Of a stretch of DNA of 32,536 bases, positions 4,320-25,843 are shown in pieces. The position numbers were made by a program, and so were the translations under genes. The DNA is from Thermoleophilia bacterium (lineage in GTDB: Bacteria; Actinomycetota; Thermoleophilia; BMS3ABIN01), in the NCBI GenBank assembly GCA_014874175.1, contig JACWAD010000004.1:1-32536 (forward strand). Reading direction: 5' to 3'. The notes beneath the pieces were generated by a model that ran no database searches, was not told the origin of the DNA, and saw nothing but the letters and a program-made list of their open reading frames with translations. The first letter of the stretch is position 1. Each line of letters begins with the position of its first letter.

Positions 4320-6719
4320 TTACGGATACGTGTAAGTTGCCCCGCAGCTATCCTGGGCTGAGGCGCGAAGAGATGTGATAAATGAGCCCGTCCCCACCGG
4401 CACGTTGTAGACAAGAGTCACGGGAGCAGAGCCGCCGGCGCTGATATTGCCGGCTCTGGCCGGCACCGGAGAGAACACGGAGACACCGTTGGAACCGGTC
4501 GCGCTGTTGATCTGGACATTTGCTGCGTCAATGCCGCCGCCATTGCCAACTGTGAACGAGACCGACAGACGCCCGGCCGCATAATCGTTTAAAGAAAACC
4601 AAAACGCACTGTATGATTTTAAGTACAGGGCCGGTTTGCCGCCGCTGCAAGAAGTATAGTCAAAGACACCGCCGCCGTAAGTGCCAGCAAAGACAGTGTT
4701 TTCTGAATTGATGTTTTGGGAGGCCGCCAGCGCGTTGATAGTGGTATTGGAAAGGCCGCTGTTTTGCGCGCTCCAGGTGGCGCCGCTGTCGGCCGACTTA
4801 AAGATGCCGCCACCGTAAGTGCCAGCATAGACGGTGCTGTTTTTGGCAAAGTTAGCTGAGACCACCAGCGAAGTAACATAAAGGTTGGTCATTCCGGCTC
4901 CGGCGCTGCTCCAGCCGGCGCCGCCGCTGGTCGATTTGAATACGCCTCCACCCCAGGAGCCGGCGAAGACAGTGCCGTCGTTAGCAAAGTCAGGCGAAGT
5001 TGCCAACGAATAAATATTCATGCCGGCAAGCCCTGAATTAACCGCGCTCCAGCTGGCGCCGCCGCTGGTTGACTTGAAAACTCCGCAGCCATTCGTGCCT
5101 GCAAAAACGGTATGGTCTGTAGCAAAACCCGACGAGACAGACAAGGCCGAGATTGAGCAGCCGCCACTCGTGTAAACCCGGGACCATGTCGCTCCTCCAT
5201 TGGTGGTTAAGTAAACTCCGTCCACACTCCCCGCAAACGCTGTGTTGTCGGTGGCGAAGCCGGGAGAAACAGCCAGCGCGACAATATACAGGTTGGCAAA
5301 GCCGCTGTTCTGCACGCTCCAGGTGGCGCCGCCATTGCTCGATTTATAAACGCCGTTGCCGTACCCGCCTGCAAGGACAGTGCCATCGGCTGCGAAGTTG
5401 GGTGACACTGCCAGGGCATCAAAATAGGCGTTTGCGGGCAGCCCCCCGTTCACTGCGCTCCAGCCGGCGCCGCCGTCGGTGGACTTGAAGATGCCGGCTC
5501 CGTTGGGGGCAGAAAAAACTGTATTGTCGTTACTAAAATTAGGAGAAACTGCCAAGGAATAGACGTAAGTGCTGATTATGCCGTCATTGGCAGCGCTCCA
5601 GCTGGCGCCGCCGCTGGTTGACTTGAAGACGCCTCCGCCGCGGCTGCCGGCAAATATTGTCTGGTCATTAGCAAAGTTTGGAGATATCGCAACCGACAAT
5701 ATAAAAGTGTTGCTAAGGCCACTGTTTAACTGCGCCCAGCTGGCGCCGCCGTCGGTGGACTTATAAAGGCCCGAATTGGCAACATTGGCCAGGACAACGT
5801 TGTCACTGGCAAAATTTGGCGATACCGCCAAAGAGACGATATCGAGAGGCAGCCCGTTATTGACGCTGCTCCAGTTGGCGCCACCGCTGGTGGACTTGAA
5901 GACGCCGCCGCCCCAAGTGCCCGCGAAGACGGTCCGGTCTGTAGCAAAACCAGGTGACATAATCAACCAGGATATGTTCTGGCTGGTGAGGCCGCTGTTT
6001 TCCGCCGCCCAGCCGGCGCCGGCGTCGGTTGAGGAGTAAAGGCCACCGCCATAAATGCCAGCCATAAGTGAGTGGTCGGTGGCAAAGGCTGGTGAAAGCG
6101 CTAGCGCGAAAATATCCATGCTGGCAGGCAGCCCGCCGCCAACTGCGCTCCAGCTGGCGCCGGCGTCGGTGGATTTGAAGAGGCCGGCGGCAGTGCCGGC
6201 AAAAACGGTGTGGTCCAGGCCAAATCCGGGAGAGATGGCCAGAGAGTCAATACTGCTGTTTGAAAGACCGCTGCTGGCAGAGCTCCAGGTGGCGCCGCCG
6301 TCGGTGGATTTGAAAATGCCGCTGCCGGAGCCGGCAAAGACCGTCTTGTCCGATGAAAAGCCAGGCGAGACTGCAAGCGCGCTAAAATTTGCGCCGGCAG
6401 GAAGCCCGCCATTTTCCTGCGCCCAGCTGGCGCCGCCGTCAGCAGACTTAAAAATTCCTCCGGCTGTGGCTGCAAACAGGCTGTTGTCACTGGCAAAGGC
6501 GGGAGAAACTGCAACCGCCTTGATTGTGCCGCCGTAAGGCCCGCCCGTTGTCCACTGGTTTATGCCGGCGAGGCCCGTTTGCGGTGAGCCGGAAACAGCC
6601 AGCAAAGTGAGCAAAAAAAACCCGGCGGCAAATCTGGTCAGCCATGAACCGGGTTTGCGCCGGCGGTTTTTTCTAGCGGCGCAAGAAGCGCGCGCTTCAA
6701 TACCCCAATATGATTTCAT
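4320..6719 (-). CDS. Secreted 14-repeat beta-propeller (Asp-box/BNR-like) protein with C-terminal Ig-like domain
   Basis: 799 residues. The start MKSYWGIEARA at 6719 has GAGGGG eight bases upstream; the longer frame to 6752 lacks a site. A basic N-terminus is followed by a hydrophobic stretch (~30-50, FAAGFFLLTLLAVSG), a signal peptide or membrane anchor. Fourteen consecutive ~45-48-residue units follow (~55-690). Each has a strand of type SLAVSPNFAxDxTVFAG, then GGGVFKSTDGGASW, the S-x-D/S-x-G-x-x-W Asp-box of sialidase, BNR and sortilin propellers. Fourteen units would make two seven-bladed propellers. No sialidase catalytic Arg/Tyr set is apparent, so a binding or scaffold role is more likely. 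The last ~108 residues match the C-terminus of the protein at 21214-22584 (PVPxxxGxIxxGG, YxVPVG). It stands alone between non-coding gaps. Confidence 0.88.
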   Translation of the reverse strand: MKSYWGIEARASCAARKNRRRKPGSWLTRFAAGFFLLTLLAVSGSPQTGLAGINQWTTGGPYGGTIKAVAVSPAFASDNSLFAATAGGIFKSADGGASWAQENGGLPAGANFSALAVSPGFSSDKTVFAGSGSGIFKSTDGGATWSSASSGLSNSSIDSLAISPGFGLDHTVFAGTAAGLFKSTDAGASWSAVGGGLPASMDIFALALSPAFATDHSLMAGIYGGGLYSSTDAGAGWAAENSGLTSQNISWLIMSPGFATDRTVFAGTWGGGVFKSTSGGANWSSVNNGLPLDIVSLAVSPNFASDNVVLANVANSGLYKSTDGGASWAQLNSGLSNTFILSVAISPNFANDQTIFAGSRGGGVFKSTSGGASWSAANDGIISTYVYSLAVSPNFSNDNTVFSAPNGAGIFKSTDGGAGWSAVNGGLPANAYFDALAVSPNFAADGTVLAGGYGNGVYKSSNGGATWSVQNSGFANLYIVALAVSPGFATDNTAFAGSVDGVYLTTNGGATWSRVYTSGGCSISALSVSSGFATDHTVFAGTNGCGVFKSTSGGASWSAVNSGLAGMNIYSLATSPDFANDGTVFAGSWGGGVFKSTSGGAGWSSAGAGMTNLYVTSLVVSANFAKNSTVYAGTYGGGIFKSADSGATWSAQNSGLSNTTINALAASQNINSENTVFAGTYGGGVFDYTSCSGGKPALYLKSYSAFWFSLNDYAAGRLSVSFTVGNGGGIDAANVQINSATGSNGVSVFSPVPARAGNISAGGSAPVTLVYNVPVGTGSFITSLRASAQDSCGATYTYP

Positions 6720-6802
6720 TCCCCATCCCCTCAACAAAACTATTGTAGGCAATATATAAAAATTGCAGGAAGTTTATTGTACAACAATAGAAATGGTTGT
6801 CA

Positions 6803-21128: not shown

Positions 21129-21213
21129 TGGCCAGAATGCAGTGCAGGCATGATGCCGCTTGATCAGTCCGCGAGAGGAATGCTGGTGGCCAACCCTGCC
21201 TATGGAGCCGCAA

Positions 21214-22584
21214 ATGTCAAAGCGCCCTGCTTGCAAATTAATGACCGCCCTGGCGGTTTTTCTGCTCATGTTCCTGGGCGGCCAGGTCGCCGCCGTGGCT
21301 GTAACTCCCATCCAGGTTGCCAGCAGCTTCCACCAGGGCCGGCCCGACGTCAGCGGCAGCCTCGTCACCTGGAAAAGGGATCTTCCCGCACCTACGGATT
21401 ACGAAATTTACGCAAACAGCCTGACCAGTCTTTCAAGTCCGGGCGAACAGGACATCACTGAAAGCGAAGGAGGAAACCAGATAAATCCTGTCACAAACGG
21501 CAGCGACATTATCTGGGAAGACTGGAGCGCCGGCAACGGCAACATTTACATGAATCACCTTGGCGTCAACGAGCCGCTTGTGACCGGTCCCGGCAACAAG
21601 GGAATCCTGGCAGTCAGCGGCAGCACGGTGGCTTTCGTTTACAACCCCGGCACTGCCTCAACGTCAATCACTGATCCCGGCAACCAGGTTTATTCTATCG
21701 ACATATCCGGCGGCCTGGCCCAGCCGGTTGACCCCACAGGCGCCGCCCAGTGGCAGCCGCGCATCAGCGGCAGCAAGGTGGTCTGGATGGACTACCGCAA
21801 CGGGAACTGGGATATATTTGAGAAAGACATAAGCGACGGTCTGGAGCGGCAGCTGACCGCGGGCGGCGACAATGAATTCCCGGACATCAGCGGCAACATA
21901 GTCGTCTGGCGGTCCTACCTGGACGGCGCATGGAATATGCACTGGATGAACCTCGCCGACGGCATCGACCATCAGCTAACAAGTAACAACGCCTACAAGC
22001 AGTCCATCTGCATCAGCGGCAGCCTGGTCGTCTGGATGGACGGCAGCAATGATCCGGACCCGGCCAGCCCGTCTGCCTACGACCTTTTCATGGAGGATCT
22101 TAACACCGGCGTCGTCAGCACCCTGGCTGCCCTCAATACCAACCCCGCTTATCCCGCCGCCAGCAACGGCGCCGTTGTCTGGCAGGACGATCCGTCCGGG
22201 AGCTGGGACGGCTATGACATCATGGCGGCATACGTTCCGACGGCGAAACTGTCGCTTAAGCTGCTCTCCCAGAGCGCTTTTTGGGCTTCCTTTAAGGATT
22301 ATCAAAATGGTCTATTGTCAGTGAAGTATACGATCGGCGCCCCGCCTGATGCCGCCGCGGCCTACGGGACGCAGATCCTTGCTTCGCCAGCAACATCCGG
22401 CGTGATGCTAAACACTCCTACGCCCGTGCCGGTCGGCGACATCCAGCCCGGCGGGCAGACCAGCGTCACGGTCAAGTACCAGGTTCCAGTGGGAGTGTCG
22501 GCGTTCAGGACCACACTTTACGCCAGCGCCAGTGACGCTGTTGGCGACACCGCCTACTTTCCGGGTCCTCCGCCCGGCGCATGA
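21214..22584 (+). CDS. Secreted TolB-like beta-propeller protein with C-terminal Ig-like domain
   Basis: 456 residues. The start MSKRPACKLM at 21214 has GGAG six bases upstream and opens a clear signal peptide (ALAVFLLMFLGG, then AVAV). Residues ~35-340 hold about six propeller repeats of the form ISGSKVVWMDYRNGNWDIFEKDI and DISGNIVVWRSYLDGAWNMHW, as in TolB-type WD40-like sheets. The C-terminal ~108 residues (from LKLLSQSAFW) closely match the end of the unrelated propeller at 4320-6719: both read SAFW, a DY..G.LSV strand, TPVPVG/PVPARAG, GG, YxVPVG and ASAxD. The protein is outside the cell or on the wall; its ligand is unknown. It has its own promoter and converges on the peptidase gene at 22622. 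Confidence 0.85.
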   Translation: MSKRPACKLMTALAVFLLMFLGGQVAAVAVTPIQVASSFHQGRPDVSGSLVTWKRDLPAPTDYEIYANSLTSLSSPGEQDITESEGGNQINPVTNGSDIIWEDWSAGNGNIYMNHLGVNEPLVTGPGNKGILAVSGSTVAFVYNPGTASTSITDPGNQVYSIDISGGLAQPVDPTGAAQWQPRISGSKVVWMDYRNGNWDIFEKDISDGLERQLTAGGDNEFPDISGNIVVWRSYLDGAWNMHWMNLADGIDHQLTSNNAYKQSICISGSLVVWMDGSNDPDPASPSAYDLFMEDLNTGVVSTLAALNTNPAYPAASNGAVVWQDDPSGSWDGYDIMAAYVPTAKLSLKLLSQSAFWASFKDYQNGLLSVKYTIGAPPDAAAAYGTQILASPATSGVMLNTPTPVPVGDIQPGGQTSVTVKYQVPVGVSAFRTTLYASASDAVGDTAYFPGPPPGA

Positions 22585-22621: not shown

Positions 22622-23179
22622 TCACAGCCTCATGCCAAGCCGGAGTACACGCTTCAGCAACAGGCCGCCCGCCGCAAGCAGGCGCCTCTGCCGCGCGCCT
22701 GCTGCGCCGCTGGCAGTAATGCCCCTTGCCTGGAGCCGGGCAAGCAGCCTGCCTCCGATTTTATAAAACCGCCACTCAAGGTCCGTCTTCCGGCCGCGGC
22801 CCCAAACAGCGGTCACTAAACCAATTATCTCATCATCGGTCAACGGCAAATCCGGGGATGATGAATTGTCGCCCATGGTTATCAGGGTGGGTTTGTTTTC
22901 AAACATTGTGCGCCCAATCACCCTGTGGACGATGACCAGGCCGCCCTTAAGACAGGCCATGACGACATCGCCCGGCCTGAGCCTGTCAAATTCACGTGAC
23001 CTCACCAGCACAGTTTCTCCCGACCGAATCGTGGGGCTCATGCTGGAGCCGGTGGCCCTGAATGAAAAGGCGCCGCCCCTGGCGAGAACTTCCCGGGCCA
23101 AAGCGGCTAGATCCGGGCCGGCAAGGCGGGCGTCCTGCTCAGCGGCTGCGATTTTGGGGCTCTGGTATATTTCTGACAT
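22622..23179 (-). CDS. S24/S26-family (signal-peptidase-like) protease, Ser/His/Asp type
   Basis: 185 residues from MSEIYQSPK. The S26 core is present: catalytic Ser46 in TGSSMSPTIRSGE, box LRPGDVVM, His85 in VIVHRVIGR at the place where bacterial enzymes have Lys, and GDNSSSPD with Asp104 and Asp110. This is the Ser-His-Asp arrangement of the archaeal/ER signal peptidase group. Unlike those enzymes it has no N-terminal membrane segment, so it may act in the cytoplasm or at the membrane surface. The start at 23179 overlaps the kinase gene by 41 bases; a start at 23212 is possible but less likely. As last gene of the peptide cassette it is a candidate for removing the leader from the 57-residue precursor (inference). 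Confidence 0.82.
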   Translation of the reverse strand: MSEIYQSPKIAAAEQDARLAGPDLAALAREVLARGGAFSFRATGSSMSPTIRSGETVLVRSREFDRLRPGDVVMACLKGGLVIVHRVIGRTMFENKPTLITMGDNSSSPDLPLTDDEIIGLVTAVWGRGRKTDLEWRFYKIGGRLLARLQARGITASGAAGARQRRLLAAGGLLLKRVLRLGMRL

Positions 23180-24059
23180 GCTCAACCGCGGCCGGCCCGG
23201 GCGTGAATCCAAGCTCGTAGCCAGGCACGGCCTGCGCTATCTCTGCCGCCAGGCCGGCGCTAAACTGCATGCCGGTCTCGTTCCAGAAAGTGGGGAAACA
23301 AGTGGCCAGGATGCGCGAGGCTATCTGGGCGGGACCCAGACTTTGGTGACTGTTTGCGGCTGCTTGCTTCAGGAAAAAAATGGACTTGAGCGGGGCGCCG
23401 GCGGCCGCAGCCAGCCCGGCCTCGCCGTGCCAGGGAGTGCCGTGGATATTAAAGCCTCCCTCACCGCGCCTCGTGATGATGATGCGGTCATCGCTGAGGA
23501 CTGCGGCGGCGCCTTCAGCTTCCCACAGCCTGGACAGCGTGCTTTTACCGGCCCCGGAAGCACCCAGAAAAAGAATGCCGGCGCCATCAACGTCGATGCC
23601 GGCGGCATGGACCTCCAGGCCGTGGCCGAGCCCCAGGCGGTTGACGACAACAACCTCATCGAGCGGGTAGCTAAACGGGAAAAACCCCGGCATGCTTTTT
23701 TCAATCTCGCTGTCGAAAAAAGTTTCCCCCCTATCAAAGTTTTGATCAAGAAATGCAATCTGATAGGGATCTTCGCTCCGGGCCAGGTTGTGGAGGGTGA
23801 TTAAATAGCGCCTGTCGCTGCGCCAAAGCCTCCAGGGGCCGCCCGAATCAAAGAGAAGTTCTCCTTGCCAGCGGGGGATGCCGGCGTCACGTGTCTCAAG
23901 CAGGAAATCGGTTTTGCCGCTGTCAGCGAGGAACGGCTGGTAGGCAGGCGGAATCTCAAAACCGCCGCCCCGGGGAGCGGAATCGCCGCCCCGGGGAGCG
24001 GAATCTATCTCAATGACAAGACCGGCTATCAGGAACCTGGCCTTCTTCATGAAAGTCAT
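23139..24059 (-). CDS. HPr-kinase-like protein (peptide-cassette associated)
   Basis: 306 residues. The C-terminal half is an HprK-type P-loop kinase: VHAAGI, Walker A GASGAGKST (166-174), VLSDDRIII (~188-194) and GTPWHGE (~207). True HPr kinase/phosphorylase is longer and has a different N-terminal domain; this N-terminus (LVIEIDS ... GFEIPPAYQPF) is that of HprK relatives found in PqqD/radical-SAM peptide cassettes. In lasso peptide clusters such kinases phosphorylate the C-terminal Ser of the precursor. The precursor 54 bases upstream ends in Ser, so the same job is plausible here but unproven. Residues 19-32 are a perfect duplication of DSAPRGG. The ribosome-binding site is weak (TTAGAA). 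Confidence 0.85.
   Translation of the reverse strand: MTFMKKARFLIAGLVIEIDSAPRGGDSAPRGGGFEIPPAYQPFLADSGKTDFLLETRDAGIPRWQGELLFDSGGPWRLWRSDRRYLITLHNLARSEDPYQIAFLDQNFDRGETFFDSEIEKSMPGFFPFSYPLDEVVVVNRLGLGHGLEVHAAGIDVDGAGILFLGASGAGKSTLSRLWEAEGAAAVLSDDRIIITRRGEGGFNIHGTPWHGEAGLAAAAGAPLKSIFFLKQAAANSHQSLGPAQIASRILATCFPTFWNETGMQFSAGLAAEIAQAVPGYELGFTPGPAAVEHVRNIPEPQNRSR
23964..24005 (-). repeat. Tandem 21-bp duplication inside the HPr-kinase-like gene
   Basis: Two identical 21-bp copies, 23964-23984 and 23985-24005, add seven residues (DSAPRGG) in frame near the N-terminus, in a loop between predicted strands. Confidence 0.9.
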
Positions 24060-24113
24060 TTCTAATGAAGAAAGTTTTTTCCCCGGCTTTTCACATGATT
24101 AAAAGAATTCCGG

Positions 24114-24287
24114 CTAGCTGCCCACGGATGAGCAGCTCTCTTGAAAGACACCGCTGCACCAACCGGGAGGAGGCCCGGAAATCTGAGGGCTTACGGTCTT
24201 GCAATTACCAAGAACTGCCTCTTCGGCAACCAGGGGCACCCGCTCAATCCTCGGCTCCCGGTATGGCCTTCGCCCACTATTCTTCAT
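24114..24287 (-). CDS. Putative RiPP precursor peptide, 57 residues
   Basis: Starts MKNSGRRPYREPRIERVPLV, then AEEAVLGNCK, TVSPQISGPPPGWCSGV and ends FQESCSSVGS. A charged leader with the K/R-P-Y-x-x-P-x-I/E-x-V pattern, then EEAVLGxCK, then a Gly/Pro/Ser/Cys-rich tail, is the layout of precursors that accompany PqqD plus radical SAM/SPASM enzymes. Cys29, Cys44 and Cys52 are candidate modification sites, and the C-terminal Ser57 is a candidate for the neighbouring kinase. GGAGGGG lies seven bases before the ATG at 24287, the best site in the cassette. It has its own promoter in the 90-base gap after the maturase. Sequence of a mature product cannot be predicted. Confidence 0.78.
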   Translation of the reverse strand: MKNSGRRPYREPRIERVPLVAEEAVLGNCKTVSPQISGPPPGWCSGVFQESCSSVGS

Positions 24288-24303
24288 TAACCATCCCCTC
24301 CTC

Positions 24304-24323
24304 GTATCAATAAGTATCAATAA
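24304..24323 (-). repeat. Perfect tandem 10-bp repeat in the precursor leader
   Basis: Two adjacent copies of GTATCAATAA (plus-strand reading) lie between the predicted transcription start and the ribosome-binding site of the precursor gene. A 10-bp period puts both on one face of the helix, as in many regulator binding sites. Confidence 0.6.
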
Positions 24324-24334
24324 AATTAATCTGT

Positions 24335-24361
24335 ACTATAACAATTCCAGCTTGATTTCAA
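24335..24361 (-). promoter_or_regulatory. Predicted promoter of the precursor peptide gene
   Basis: -35 TTGAAA and -10 TATAGT with a TG one base before it (extended -10), spacer 15 bases. It lies between the maturase stop and the precursor, in AT-rich DNA. Confidence 0.55.
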
Positions 24362-24377
24362 TACCCTTTATCTGAAT

Positions 24378-25473
24378 TTACTGACCTGAATTCTCGGAGA
24401 ATAATTGATTACCGTAAGCGGCGCTGCGCAGGTGCGCCAGCCGGCAGAGAAACTCCGATGGCTGCTCACCATCGCCGTTTTCAATCTCGCCCCAGCCGGG
24501 GCATTGGCCGCAAAGATGATACAAATTGCAGATGGCGCAGGGATTTTCTCCCCTGGCCTCCTGGAACCGGATCCGGGCCAGGAAGTTGTCCCATCCATCC
24601 ATGAATGAACCGGTCCGCAAATCGTACCCGTCCCGCCGGGCCAGCATGCAAAGACAAAGGCGGCCCTGAGCATCAATGTGGAAGGAATTGATGCCGGCGC
24701 CGCAATGGTAGATGCGTTTCGGATCTCTTGTGAACCGGGCGGAATAGTTAAGAAACTCTCTCAGGGCGGCAATGCGGCGGCTGTCCGCCGCGTCAAGCTC
24801 AAGCACCTCTTCCGGGGTAAGCCGGCTCCGGTGCGGCTCCTTGGAGCCGTCAACATGTCCATGAATGTTGCCGTCATAGCGAAATTCTCCCCCCCAGGCC
24901 CTGCGCCATTTTCATCATCTGGCCCAGCTCATGGCGGTTTATGCGGAGCAGCATCGTTTTGAACCTGAGGCGAACGTTATTGTGCTTCAGCAGATTTATG
25001 CCATCAAGACAGCGCTGGAATGAGCCCGGCACGCCGGTCACCCGCTCGTATGTCTCTGCGGAGGCGCCATAGAGCGTCACCTCGACTGCAAACGGCGGCC
25101 ATTCGGACAGCATCGCTGCTATCTCCTCCGTGACCAGCGAGGCATTCGTGAACAGGTTTACCAGGAATCCTCTCTTTTTTGCAAGGAGATAGATCTCGCG
25201 AAAATCAAGACGCAGCAGCGGCTCGCCGCCCGTGATCAGCAACCAGAGGCAGCCGGCTGCGGCAAGCTCGTCAAATATGCGCTCAACCTCGCCGAGCGCC
25301 AGTTCGCGTTTGCCATCGTTGCTTCTGACATAACAATGAACACATCTAAAATTGCAGCGGGAGGTGAGGTCGATGCTGCCGCCCGCCGGGATGCGTTTAC
25401 TCGCGACCATCCGGTGCAGCCTGTAGCTGAAGCTGCCATAGTTGACATCAGGAATATTACTTACGCAATCCAT
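24378..25473 (-). pseudogene. Radical SAM/SPASM peptide maturase, frameshifted
   Basis: The N-terminal part (25473 to 24874) has the radical SAM motif C-x3-C-x2-C (Cys40, Cys44, Cys47 in TSRCNFRCVHCYV), LLITGGEPLLRLDF, NASLVTEEIA and VEVTLYGAS. It ends at a premature TGA at 24874-24876. The SPASM part (24888 to 24378) continues in another frame: YHCGAGINSFHIDAQGRLCLC, NPCAICNLYHLCGQCPGW and a late Cys in EFLCRL, enough Cys for two auxiliary [4Fe-4S] clusters. Removing one base from the run of seven G (C at 24889-24895 on the plus strand) joins the two into one 364-residue protein with natural sequence across the joint (LGGEFRYDGNIHGHVDG). It would use SAM chemistry to form cross-links or epimers in the precursor. 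The start ATG at 25473 is 17 bases after the PqqD stop. Assembly error, true mutation and slippage all fit. Confidence 0.85.
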
Positions 25474-25490
25474 CGCTCTTGCCGTGACAG

Positions 25491-25745
25491 TCAGCCGGCT
25501 TCGTGGACAGCCGCGATTTCCTGCAGCTGGACAAGGCAATGCTCCAGATCCGCCTGCGCCTGCTTTTGCCCAACCTCGAACTCCGCCACCAGCCGGTCGC
25601 GAATATCGGCAACCGCCAATATGCCGTCAATCTGCGACCAGATGAAGGCGGCAGTTTCATTAAGAGTGTAAACGCTGTCAAGATCGCCGACATCACGGTG
25701 AACGGGAACAAGAATGGTTTCATCCCCGATCTGCCGCCATACCAT
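25491..25745 (-). CDS. PqqD-like peptide chaperone (RiPP recognition element)
   Basis: 84 residues from MVWRQIGDETILV. It has the PqqD pattern: DETILVPVHRDVGDLDSVYTLNETAAFIWSQIDG, three helices and a C-terminal stretch LVAEFEVGQKQAQADLEHCLVQL. PqqD-type proteins bind the leader of a precursor peptide and present it to the radical SAM enzyme. The frame is open to a TTG at 25838, but that lies upstream of the predicted transcription start, and the family starts at the ATG at 25745. It is the first gene of the cassette; the maturase follows after 17 bases. Confidence 0.88.
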   Translation of the reverse strand: MVWRQIGDETILVPVHRDVGDLDSVYTLNETAAFIWSQIDGILAVADIRDRLVAEFEVGQKQAQADLEHCLVQLQEIAAVHEAG

Positions 25746-25815
25746 ATTCTTGTCTTTTTCGAAAACAGTGACTGCCCCCACCCCCAGTGGCAGTTTCCAG
25801 AGAAGAGCTTGCGTA

Positions 25816-25843
25816 ATTCTATCATCTATATGCAACAAGTTAA
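25816..25843 (-). promoter_or_regulatory. Predicted promoter of the peptide-modification cassette
   Basis: -35 TTAACT and -10 TAGAAT with a 16-base spacer. The leader (~64 bases) contains a 6-bp hairpin, ACTGCC/GGCAGT, enclosing a G-rich loop. Confidence 0.5.

Follow-up and report, generated by a model that had tools for sequence, protein, structure and literature searches.

A predicted RiPP cassette combining a recognition element, a radical SAM/SPASM enzyme, an HprK-like kinase and an S26-type peptidase in a Thermoleophilia bacterium

Five consecutive minus-strand genes of a Thermoleophilia bacterium raise the question of what they make together. The window analyzed here is the whole 32,536-nucleotide stretch of contig JACWAD010000004.1 (assembly GCA_014874175.1), which belongs, as contig C99, to a 95.7% complete draft metagenome-assembled genome (MAG) of 1.78 Mb. 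From 25781 to 22622 its minus strand encodes a PqqD-like recognition element for ribosomally synthesized and post-translationally modified peptides (RiPPs), a radical S-adenosylmethionine (SAM)/SPASM enzyme, a 57-amino-acid Cys-rich precursor, an HprK-like kinase and an S26/S24-type peptidase. We conclude that these genes probably belong to an unnamed, widespread kind of RiPP cassette guided by a RiPP recognition element (RRE), in which the core would be cross-linked by the radical SAM enzyme, phosphorylated at its C-terminal Ser and freed of its leader by the S26 peptidase. The features, with the evidence for each, are as follows.

25491..25781, minus strand: PqqD-like RiPP recognition element (discrete RRE); PF05402, probable GTG start.
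24378..25473, minus strand: radical SAM/SPASM maturase gene, in two frames; PF04055, TIGR04085, cysteine pattern, intact orthologue in G001.
24889..24895, minus strand: seven-G run breaking the radical SAM frame; no G run at this site in relatives.
24114..24287, minus strand: precursor peptide, 57 amino acids; orthologue identity, match to a leader-only profile, ribosome-binding-like upstream sequence.
23139..24059, minus strand: HprK-like peptide kinase; domain search, AlphaFold/Foldseek, conserved residues.
22622..23179, minus strand: S26/S24-type serine peptidase, predicted leader peptidase; TIGR02228, invariant triad, Foldseek.

An earlier note on this DNA had read these five genes in this order as a RiPP pathway of a probable actinobacterium. 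All five were confirmed, except that the radical SAM gene is not a single open frame, and the same-genus MAG JAJYIM010000031 (G001) is recorded as an Actinomycetes bacterium. The spacing is operon-like, with 90 bases between the radical SAM gene and the precursor and 54 between the precursor and the kinase; the peptidase start (ATG, 23179) lies inside the kinase gene, the two overlapping by 41 bases. The PqqD-like protein scored 54.0 bits against PF05402 (cut-off 23.4). Its frame covers 25491-25781 with a GTG start or 25491-25838 with a TTG start, and comparison with relatives favoured GTG. The longest open reading frame (ORF) with an ATG start at this position, 25457-25825, was rejected as lying in the wrong frame.

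The precursor (MKNSGRRPYREPRIERVPLVAEEAVLGNCKTVSPQISGPPPGWCSGVFQESCSSVGS) consists of a leader with a YxxP motif and a core with three Cys and a C-terminal Ser, and is preceded by the ribosome-binding-like sequence GAGGAGGGG. No Pfam family matched it, and no NCBIfam model matched any of six precursors from this and neighbouring cassette types, even at E<=10. It is 63-74% identical to close orthologues and 35% identical to that of the distant genome G027. Alignment confirmed a [Y/W]xxPx[hydrophobic] leader, with a consensus of about YxxPxIxxVxLxxEEAVLxxCK, followed by a variable core. Most precursors have three or four core Cys (range 2-7), with up to three precursor copies per locus; the window precursor reads CKT where close relatives mostly read CKC, which gives them a fourth Cys. 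Small residues before the CK fit a cleavage site, and no one site was conserved enough to be called.

The distribution of the cassette was determined by scanning named genomes with the radical SAM alignment, which yielded 80 loci. Almost all lie on MAG contigs or in draft records, where contig ends cut some of them short, and their phyla are those of the record titles; the four enzyme profiles were home-made from few seeds, and a further profile was built from the leader alone. Genomes G011, G013 and G006 have the same order (PqqD-radical SAM-precursor-HprK-S26) with precursors about 70% identical to that of the window, two each in G013 and G006. The order is also kept in G027, and in G001 the cassette is split across two contig ends. 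Altogether, PqqD, HprK, S26 and a leader-type precursor lie beside a radical SAM gene at 23 loci, 18 of them with one close radical SAM gene. MAGs from about ten phyla contain such complete sets, the titles being Acidobacteria, Omnitrophota, Aminicenantes, Chloroflexi, Deltaproteobacteria/Desulfobacterales, Aerophobetes, Nitrospirae, Kiritimatiellia, Lentisphaerae, Verrucomicrobia and Actinobacteria. Among uncut loci with the closest radical SAM enzymes (E<1e-90), PqqD and HprK were each found in 21/22, S26 in 14/22 and a precursor in 16/22; with distant ones (E>1e-60) the values were 2/11, 3/11, 3/11 and 0/11, respectively, showing that co-occurrence drops with radical SAM distance. Since related genomes preserve both the gene order and the precursor, the cassette is more than a chance association, and its reading as a RiPP pathway is well supported. 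Two observations named beforehand as able to refute that reading were the lack, in relatives, of the peptidase and kinase beside the PqqD/radical SAM pair and the lack of a conserved short ORF at the precursor position; both the co-occurrence and the ORF were found. The cassette is patchy, however, since a kinase match at E<=1e-10 was found in 22 of 399 genomes of the window's class.

Two other arrangements were seen during the scan. A second cassette type (type 2) has the order HprK-PqqD-radical SAM-precursor-S26 (L030, 2731-6024, plus strand; L037, L038, L039 and L040), with precursors such as MKKTYAKPVIKSFLINEPLAYACNVYNASCCKGRWTGCNLPTDLHLVCD that lack a C-terminal Ser; in G011 both types stand tail to tail, the window-type cassette there covering 6042-9292 of L030. 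Nitrospira-type loci (L112, L115, L117, L118, L121, L124, L127 and L129) contain a kinase and three radical SAM genes, in many cases together with an S26-like gene. Their precursors share EQAILSACS and end in Ser, and these loci are seemingly unnamed too.

The radical SAM gene of the window is interrupted. Its first part begins at the ATG at 25473, stops at 24874 and bears the CxxxCxxC motif (PF04055, 81.8 bits), and the second part, at about 24899-24378, lies in another frame and matches the SPASM model TIGR04085 with 29.1 bits (cut-off 27), including the cysteines CX9-15GX4C, CX2CX5CX2C and a last Cys. Both sets of cysteines are therefore present, spread over two fragments, and are intact in G001. 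The seven-G run holds one G more than the reading common to all orthologues: the intact G001 gene reads CTGGGCGGCGAG at this site, and removal of one G from the window gene gives GLGGEFRYDG, matching the orthologues (GLGAEFRYD and similar). Relative to G001, the ratio of nonsynonymous to synonymous substitutions (dN/dS) was 0.13 before the break and 0.19 after it, compared with 0.22 for pqqD, 0.19 for hprK, 0.25 for the peptidase and 0.17 for the precursor, all rough values as dS is near 1. Both halves are thus under purifying selection. Since the same-genus copy is also intact, the frameshift either arose recently by mutation or is an artefact of assembly; the gene was selected until recently, or is still selected and the extra G is an error. 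As assembled, the window copy makes no full-length radical SAM enzyme and, because of the frameshift, may not work. A backup paralogue was sought in the same genome, where the other matches were distant (E about 1e-28 or weaker).

A serious but less probable alternative is that in this genome the cassette is a non-functional remnant, a pseudogene on its way out that yields no product. Besides the frameshift, the window precursor is short of one of the four Cys conserved in close relatives; G002 carries a decayed cassette, with a large internal deletion in the radical SAM gene and a broken kinase; and no close radical SAM or kinase gene was found in G003, G004 and G005. The low dN/dS values on both sides of the break and in the other genes argue against a remnant, as does the lack of any other stop in either half, and a single homopolymer indel is a common assembly or sequencing error in a draft MAG. 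Remnant status here would, moreover, leave the nature of the cassette in its relatives unchanged.

No curated maturase model reached its cut-off with the radical SAM protein, including the intact relative in L073. The best model for the SPASM half was PapB (31.0 of 340 bits with the C-terminal fragment), and StsB gave 78.4 of 625 bits with the N-terminal fragment. The solved relatives are SkfB, a sactipeptide maturase and the best solved match, and PqqE. The bond formed is most likely a thioether, as favoured by the conserved core Cys.

The peptidase matched PF00717 (37.3 bits) and the archaeal signal peptidase I model TIGR02228 (55.5 bits, above the cut-off of 51.85). The triad Ser46-His85-Asp104, of the archaeal/endoplasmic reticulum type, is invariant in a 12-sequence alignment; no N-terminal membrane anchor was seen, and the best Foldseek matches of the model were signal peptidases (SipA, SpsB and the human enzyme). 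The archaeal-type signal peptidase LppS cuts the leader of LppA only with its RRE and depends on a triad of this kind, S29/H68/D93 (PMC13381572). Several distant loci carry the peptidase frame fused to a GNAT acetyltransferase (L072, 3889-5970; L073, 8265-9305; L075, L076, L078 and L079) or to NTP_transf_5 (L072; L136, 7075-8454), and the window peptidase has neither fusion. Such fusions fit an enzyme working on a freshly cut N-terminus. The natural reading of the GNAT fusion, acetylation of the newly freed N-terminus, suggests a possible coupling of leader removal and end-capping.

The kinase is weakly recognised by sequence, its P-loop/HprK-like match to PF07475 (20.4 bits) being below the family cut-off of 33.3. 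Its AlphaFold model (mean predicted local distance difference test score 89) matched HPr kinase/HprK/P and phosphoenolpyruvate carboxykinase in the PDB with a Foldseek probability of 1.00 and low overall TM-scores. His151, the P-loop GxSGxGKST and Asp190-Asp191 are conserved. BsfK needs its His, the P-loop Gly/Lys/Ser and Asp-Asp (PMC10368454), and these residues are conserved in the window kinase and its relatives.

The leader-only profile retrieved 44 unique precursors, of which 39 end in Ser, three in Thr, one in Tyr (G001, VGSY) and one in Ala. As the profile covered the leader alone, the search did not favour any particular C-terminus. Ser makes up 12% of core positions -25 to -2 in the same precursors, for which the binomial figure is 2e-31, a descriptive value that ignores relatedness. 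When hand-picked precursors found by motif were added, Ser or Thr was the last residue in 59/61. In the kinase tree the upstream-kinase (type-2) cassettes separate, their most recent common ancestor holding exactly those 12 (support 0.98, midpoint rooting). Precursors of that clade end in Ser/Thr in 3/9 cases, so that the C-terminal residue segregates with the kinase clade (Fisher p 1.7e-5, which ignores relatedness and includes the hand-picked motif-found precursors). The lasso-peptide kinases PadeK, ThcoK, SyanK and PsmK phosphorylate a C-terminal Ser (PMC9266682). Since lasso-peptide HprK-like kinases have been proven to act on this residue, we predict that the cassette kinase probably phosphorylates the C-terminal Ser of the precursor.

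It is unlikely, in our judgement, that the kinase of this same cassette instead targets an internal core Ser/Thr, the C-terminal Ser being kept, for example, as a recognition tag or a carrier of a sugar or nucleotide. Such a target would agree with BsfK (PMC10368454) and LppK (PMC13381572), which modify core residue 3 (Ser3), with the type-2 cassettes, which have an HprK-like kinase and mostly no C-terminal Ser, and with L098, where the Ser is present without a nearby kinase. On the other hand, no other near-invariant Ser/Thr occurs in the last twelve residues or beside the CK motif, whereas the last residue is Ser/Thr in 42/44, and lasso-cluster kinases with Ser-ending precursors act on exactly that residue.

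With C-terminal phosphorylation as the preferred assignment, the following pathway is proposed. The PqqD-like RRE would bind the 57-amino-acid precursor at the YxxPxI/L motif of its leader, and the radical SAM/SPASM enzyme would then make at least one cross-link on the Cys-rich core, most likely thioethers from Cys. The HprK-like kinase would add one or more phosphates at the hydroxyl of the C-terminal Ser. The soluble S26 peptidase, given the RRE-bound precursor, would finally cut at the conserved EEAVLxxCK segment or immediately ahead of it, and the modified core so freed from its leader would have about 25-35 residues. We infer the chemistry and order of these steps, as well as the cleavage site and the export and biological role of the product, from the genes described above.

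Several observations weigh against this pathway. The kinase and the radical SAM protein fall below every curated cut-off for their specific families, and the conserved Cys fit thioethers without proving that bond. About a third of the closest radical SAM genes have no S26 gene nearby. In the same-genus G001 a Tyr follows the Ser of the precursor, a further precursor has Ala as its last residue, and precursors still end in Ser at L098, where no kinase was found in 13 kb, and at L119, where none was found. The radical SAM gene is frameshifted in the window and mostly deleted in G002; therefore either the cassette is decaying in the genus or the assembly is wrong.

More tentatively, and with slightly less than even confidence, we propose that these loci represent a large unnamed RiPP class of about ten mostly uncultivated phyla, whose products would be radical SAM-cross-linked Cys-rich peptides with a (poly)phosphorylated C-terminal Ser, trimmed by an RRE-presented, signal-peptidase-like S26 enzyme and, in many members, N-acetylated by a GNAT domain fused to this peptidase. 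The conserved C-terminal Ser offers a direct, cheap handle on kinase function. Because this broad family is found mainly in uncultivated phyla, one worked example would annotate many genomes.

That the genes yield an intracellular peptide-derived cofactor or electron carrier resembling pyrroloquinoline quinone (PQQ) or mycofactocin, and not an exported RiPP, is very improbable. In its favour, the window cassette lacks an exporter, PqqD/radical SAM pairs are common to PQQ and mycofactocin, and the opposite-strand neighbours read as ferredoxin oxidoreductase-like ORFs. Against it, the multicopy precursors with their variable cores are unlike cofactor precursors, phosphorylated RiPPs have a matching set of kinase and S26 peptidase, and the spread in the class is patchy.

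Some neighbouring genes recur. The window encodes on its plus strand (21160-22584) a secreted, beta-propeller-like protein without a Pfam match that ends in FPGPPPGA, and an 810-amino-acid protein (4320-6752, minus strand) appears to have the same type of C-terminal domain. In L031 (4217-5809) and L032 (7662-9398), similar proteins with a PGPPP-like end are encoded directly behind the peptidase gene in convergent orientation, and another, also with such an end, lies behind the type-2 cassette of L037 (1755-3422). Contig C83 of the same genome has, at about 14.6-15.9 kb (L001), a second PqqD beside kinase-like and possible lasso B2-like (transglutaminase-type) genes; no cyclase was seen in this 3.2-kb locus. 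The distant cassettes of L073, L076, L077 and L079 are seemingly near polysaccharide-export or exosortase-type genes, judging from their ORFs; LPP clusters (see below) have been reported in capsule loci.

Among known systems, SynChlorMet (ScmC/D/E/F, TIGR04248-TIGR04251) also brings together HprK-like, PqqD-like and radical SAM/SPASM proteins, a likeness drawn in the earlier note. The cassette has one radical SAM enzyme instead of two and a dedicated S26 peptidase, and membership was rejected, all four curated models being well below cut-off (ScmC 39.1 of 125, ScmD 25.2 of 100, ScmE 83.4 of 400 and ScmF 72.2 of 400 bits, the radical SAM scores coming from the N-terminal fragment only). The sactipeptide and ranthipeptide systems (SkfB, CteB, PapB) share a SPASM-type maturase and a Cys-rich core, but scores are far below the model cut-offs and the cassette adds a discrete RRE, a kinase and an S26 peptidase. 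The lasso clusters of the paeninodin/pseudomycoidin type (PMC9266682) share an RRE, a precursor with C-terminal Ser, a His-Lys-Asp-Asp kinase and, in some relatives, an NTP-transferase; the five cassette genes include neither a lasso cyclase nor a B2 cysteine peptidase, and have the radical SAM enzyme and S26 peptidase instead. A PQQ- or mycofactocin-type cofactor system is unlikely given the precursors.

The combination of S26, PqqD, radical SAM and HprK was not found in the open-access literature, nor was an NCBIfam model naming the cassette found, and neither the RRE-Finder paper nor a 2025 RRE paper mentions a kinase. The earlier note had taken the added S26 peptidase to be undescribed in detail. 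This no longer holds for its pairing with an RRE and an HprK-like kinase, since an archaeal-type signal peptidase that serves as leader peptidase beside both was published by Popov et al. in 2026 for the linear polyphosphorylated peptides (LPP; LppA/K/B/S/D/N), a system with an NTP transferase and a transporter that is said to be restricted to Bacillota (PMC13381572); a description of its combination with a radical SAM enzyme outside Bacillota was not found. LPP and the cassette share a discrete RRE, a YxxPx leader motif, an HprK-like kinase, an archaeal-type signal peptidase with a Ser/His/Asp triad and, in some cassette relatives, NTP_transf_5. They differ in that LPP has no radical SAM enzyme (the term is absent from the text of PMC13381572) and is phosphorylated at core residue 3, and that an NTP transferase and an MsbA-like transporter are not among the window cassette genes. 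The LPP leader reads YxxPxVLxHQxIxFETxxS, of which the window shares only YxxPx[hydrophobic], and because the leader consensus differs the cassette is placed outside LPP. It is best read as a radical SAM cross-linking enzyme added to the LPP trio of RRE, kinase and S26 peptidase. It would thus bring together two branches of RiPP chemistry that have so far been treated separately, one based on radical SAM cross-links and the other on HprK-type peptide phosphorylation coupled with a leader peptidase resembling signal peptidases.

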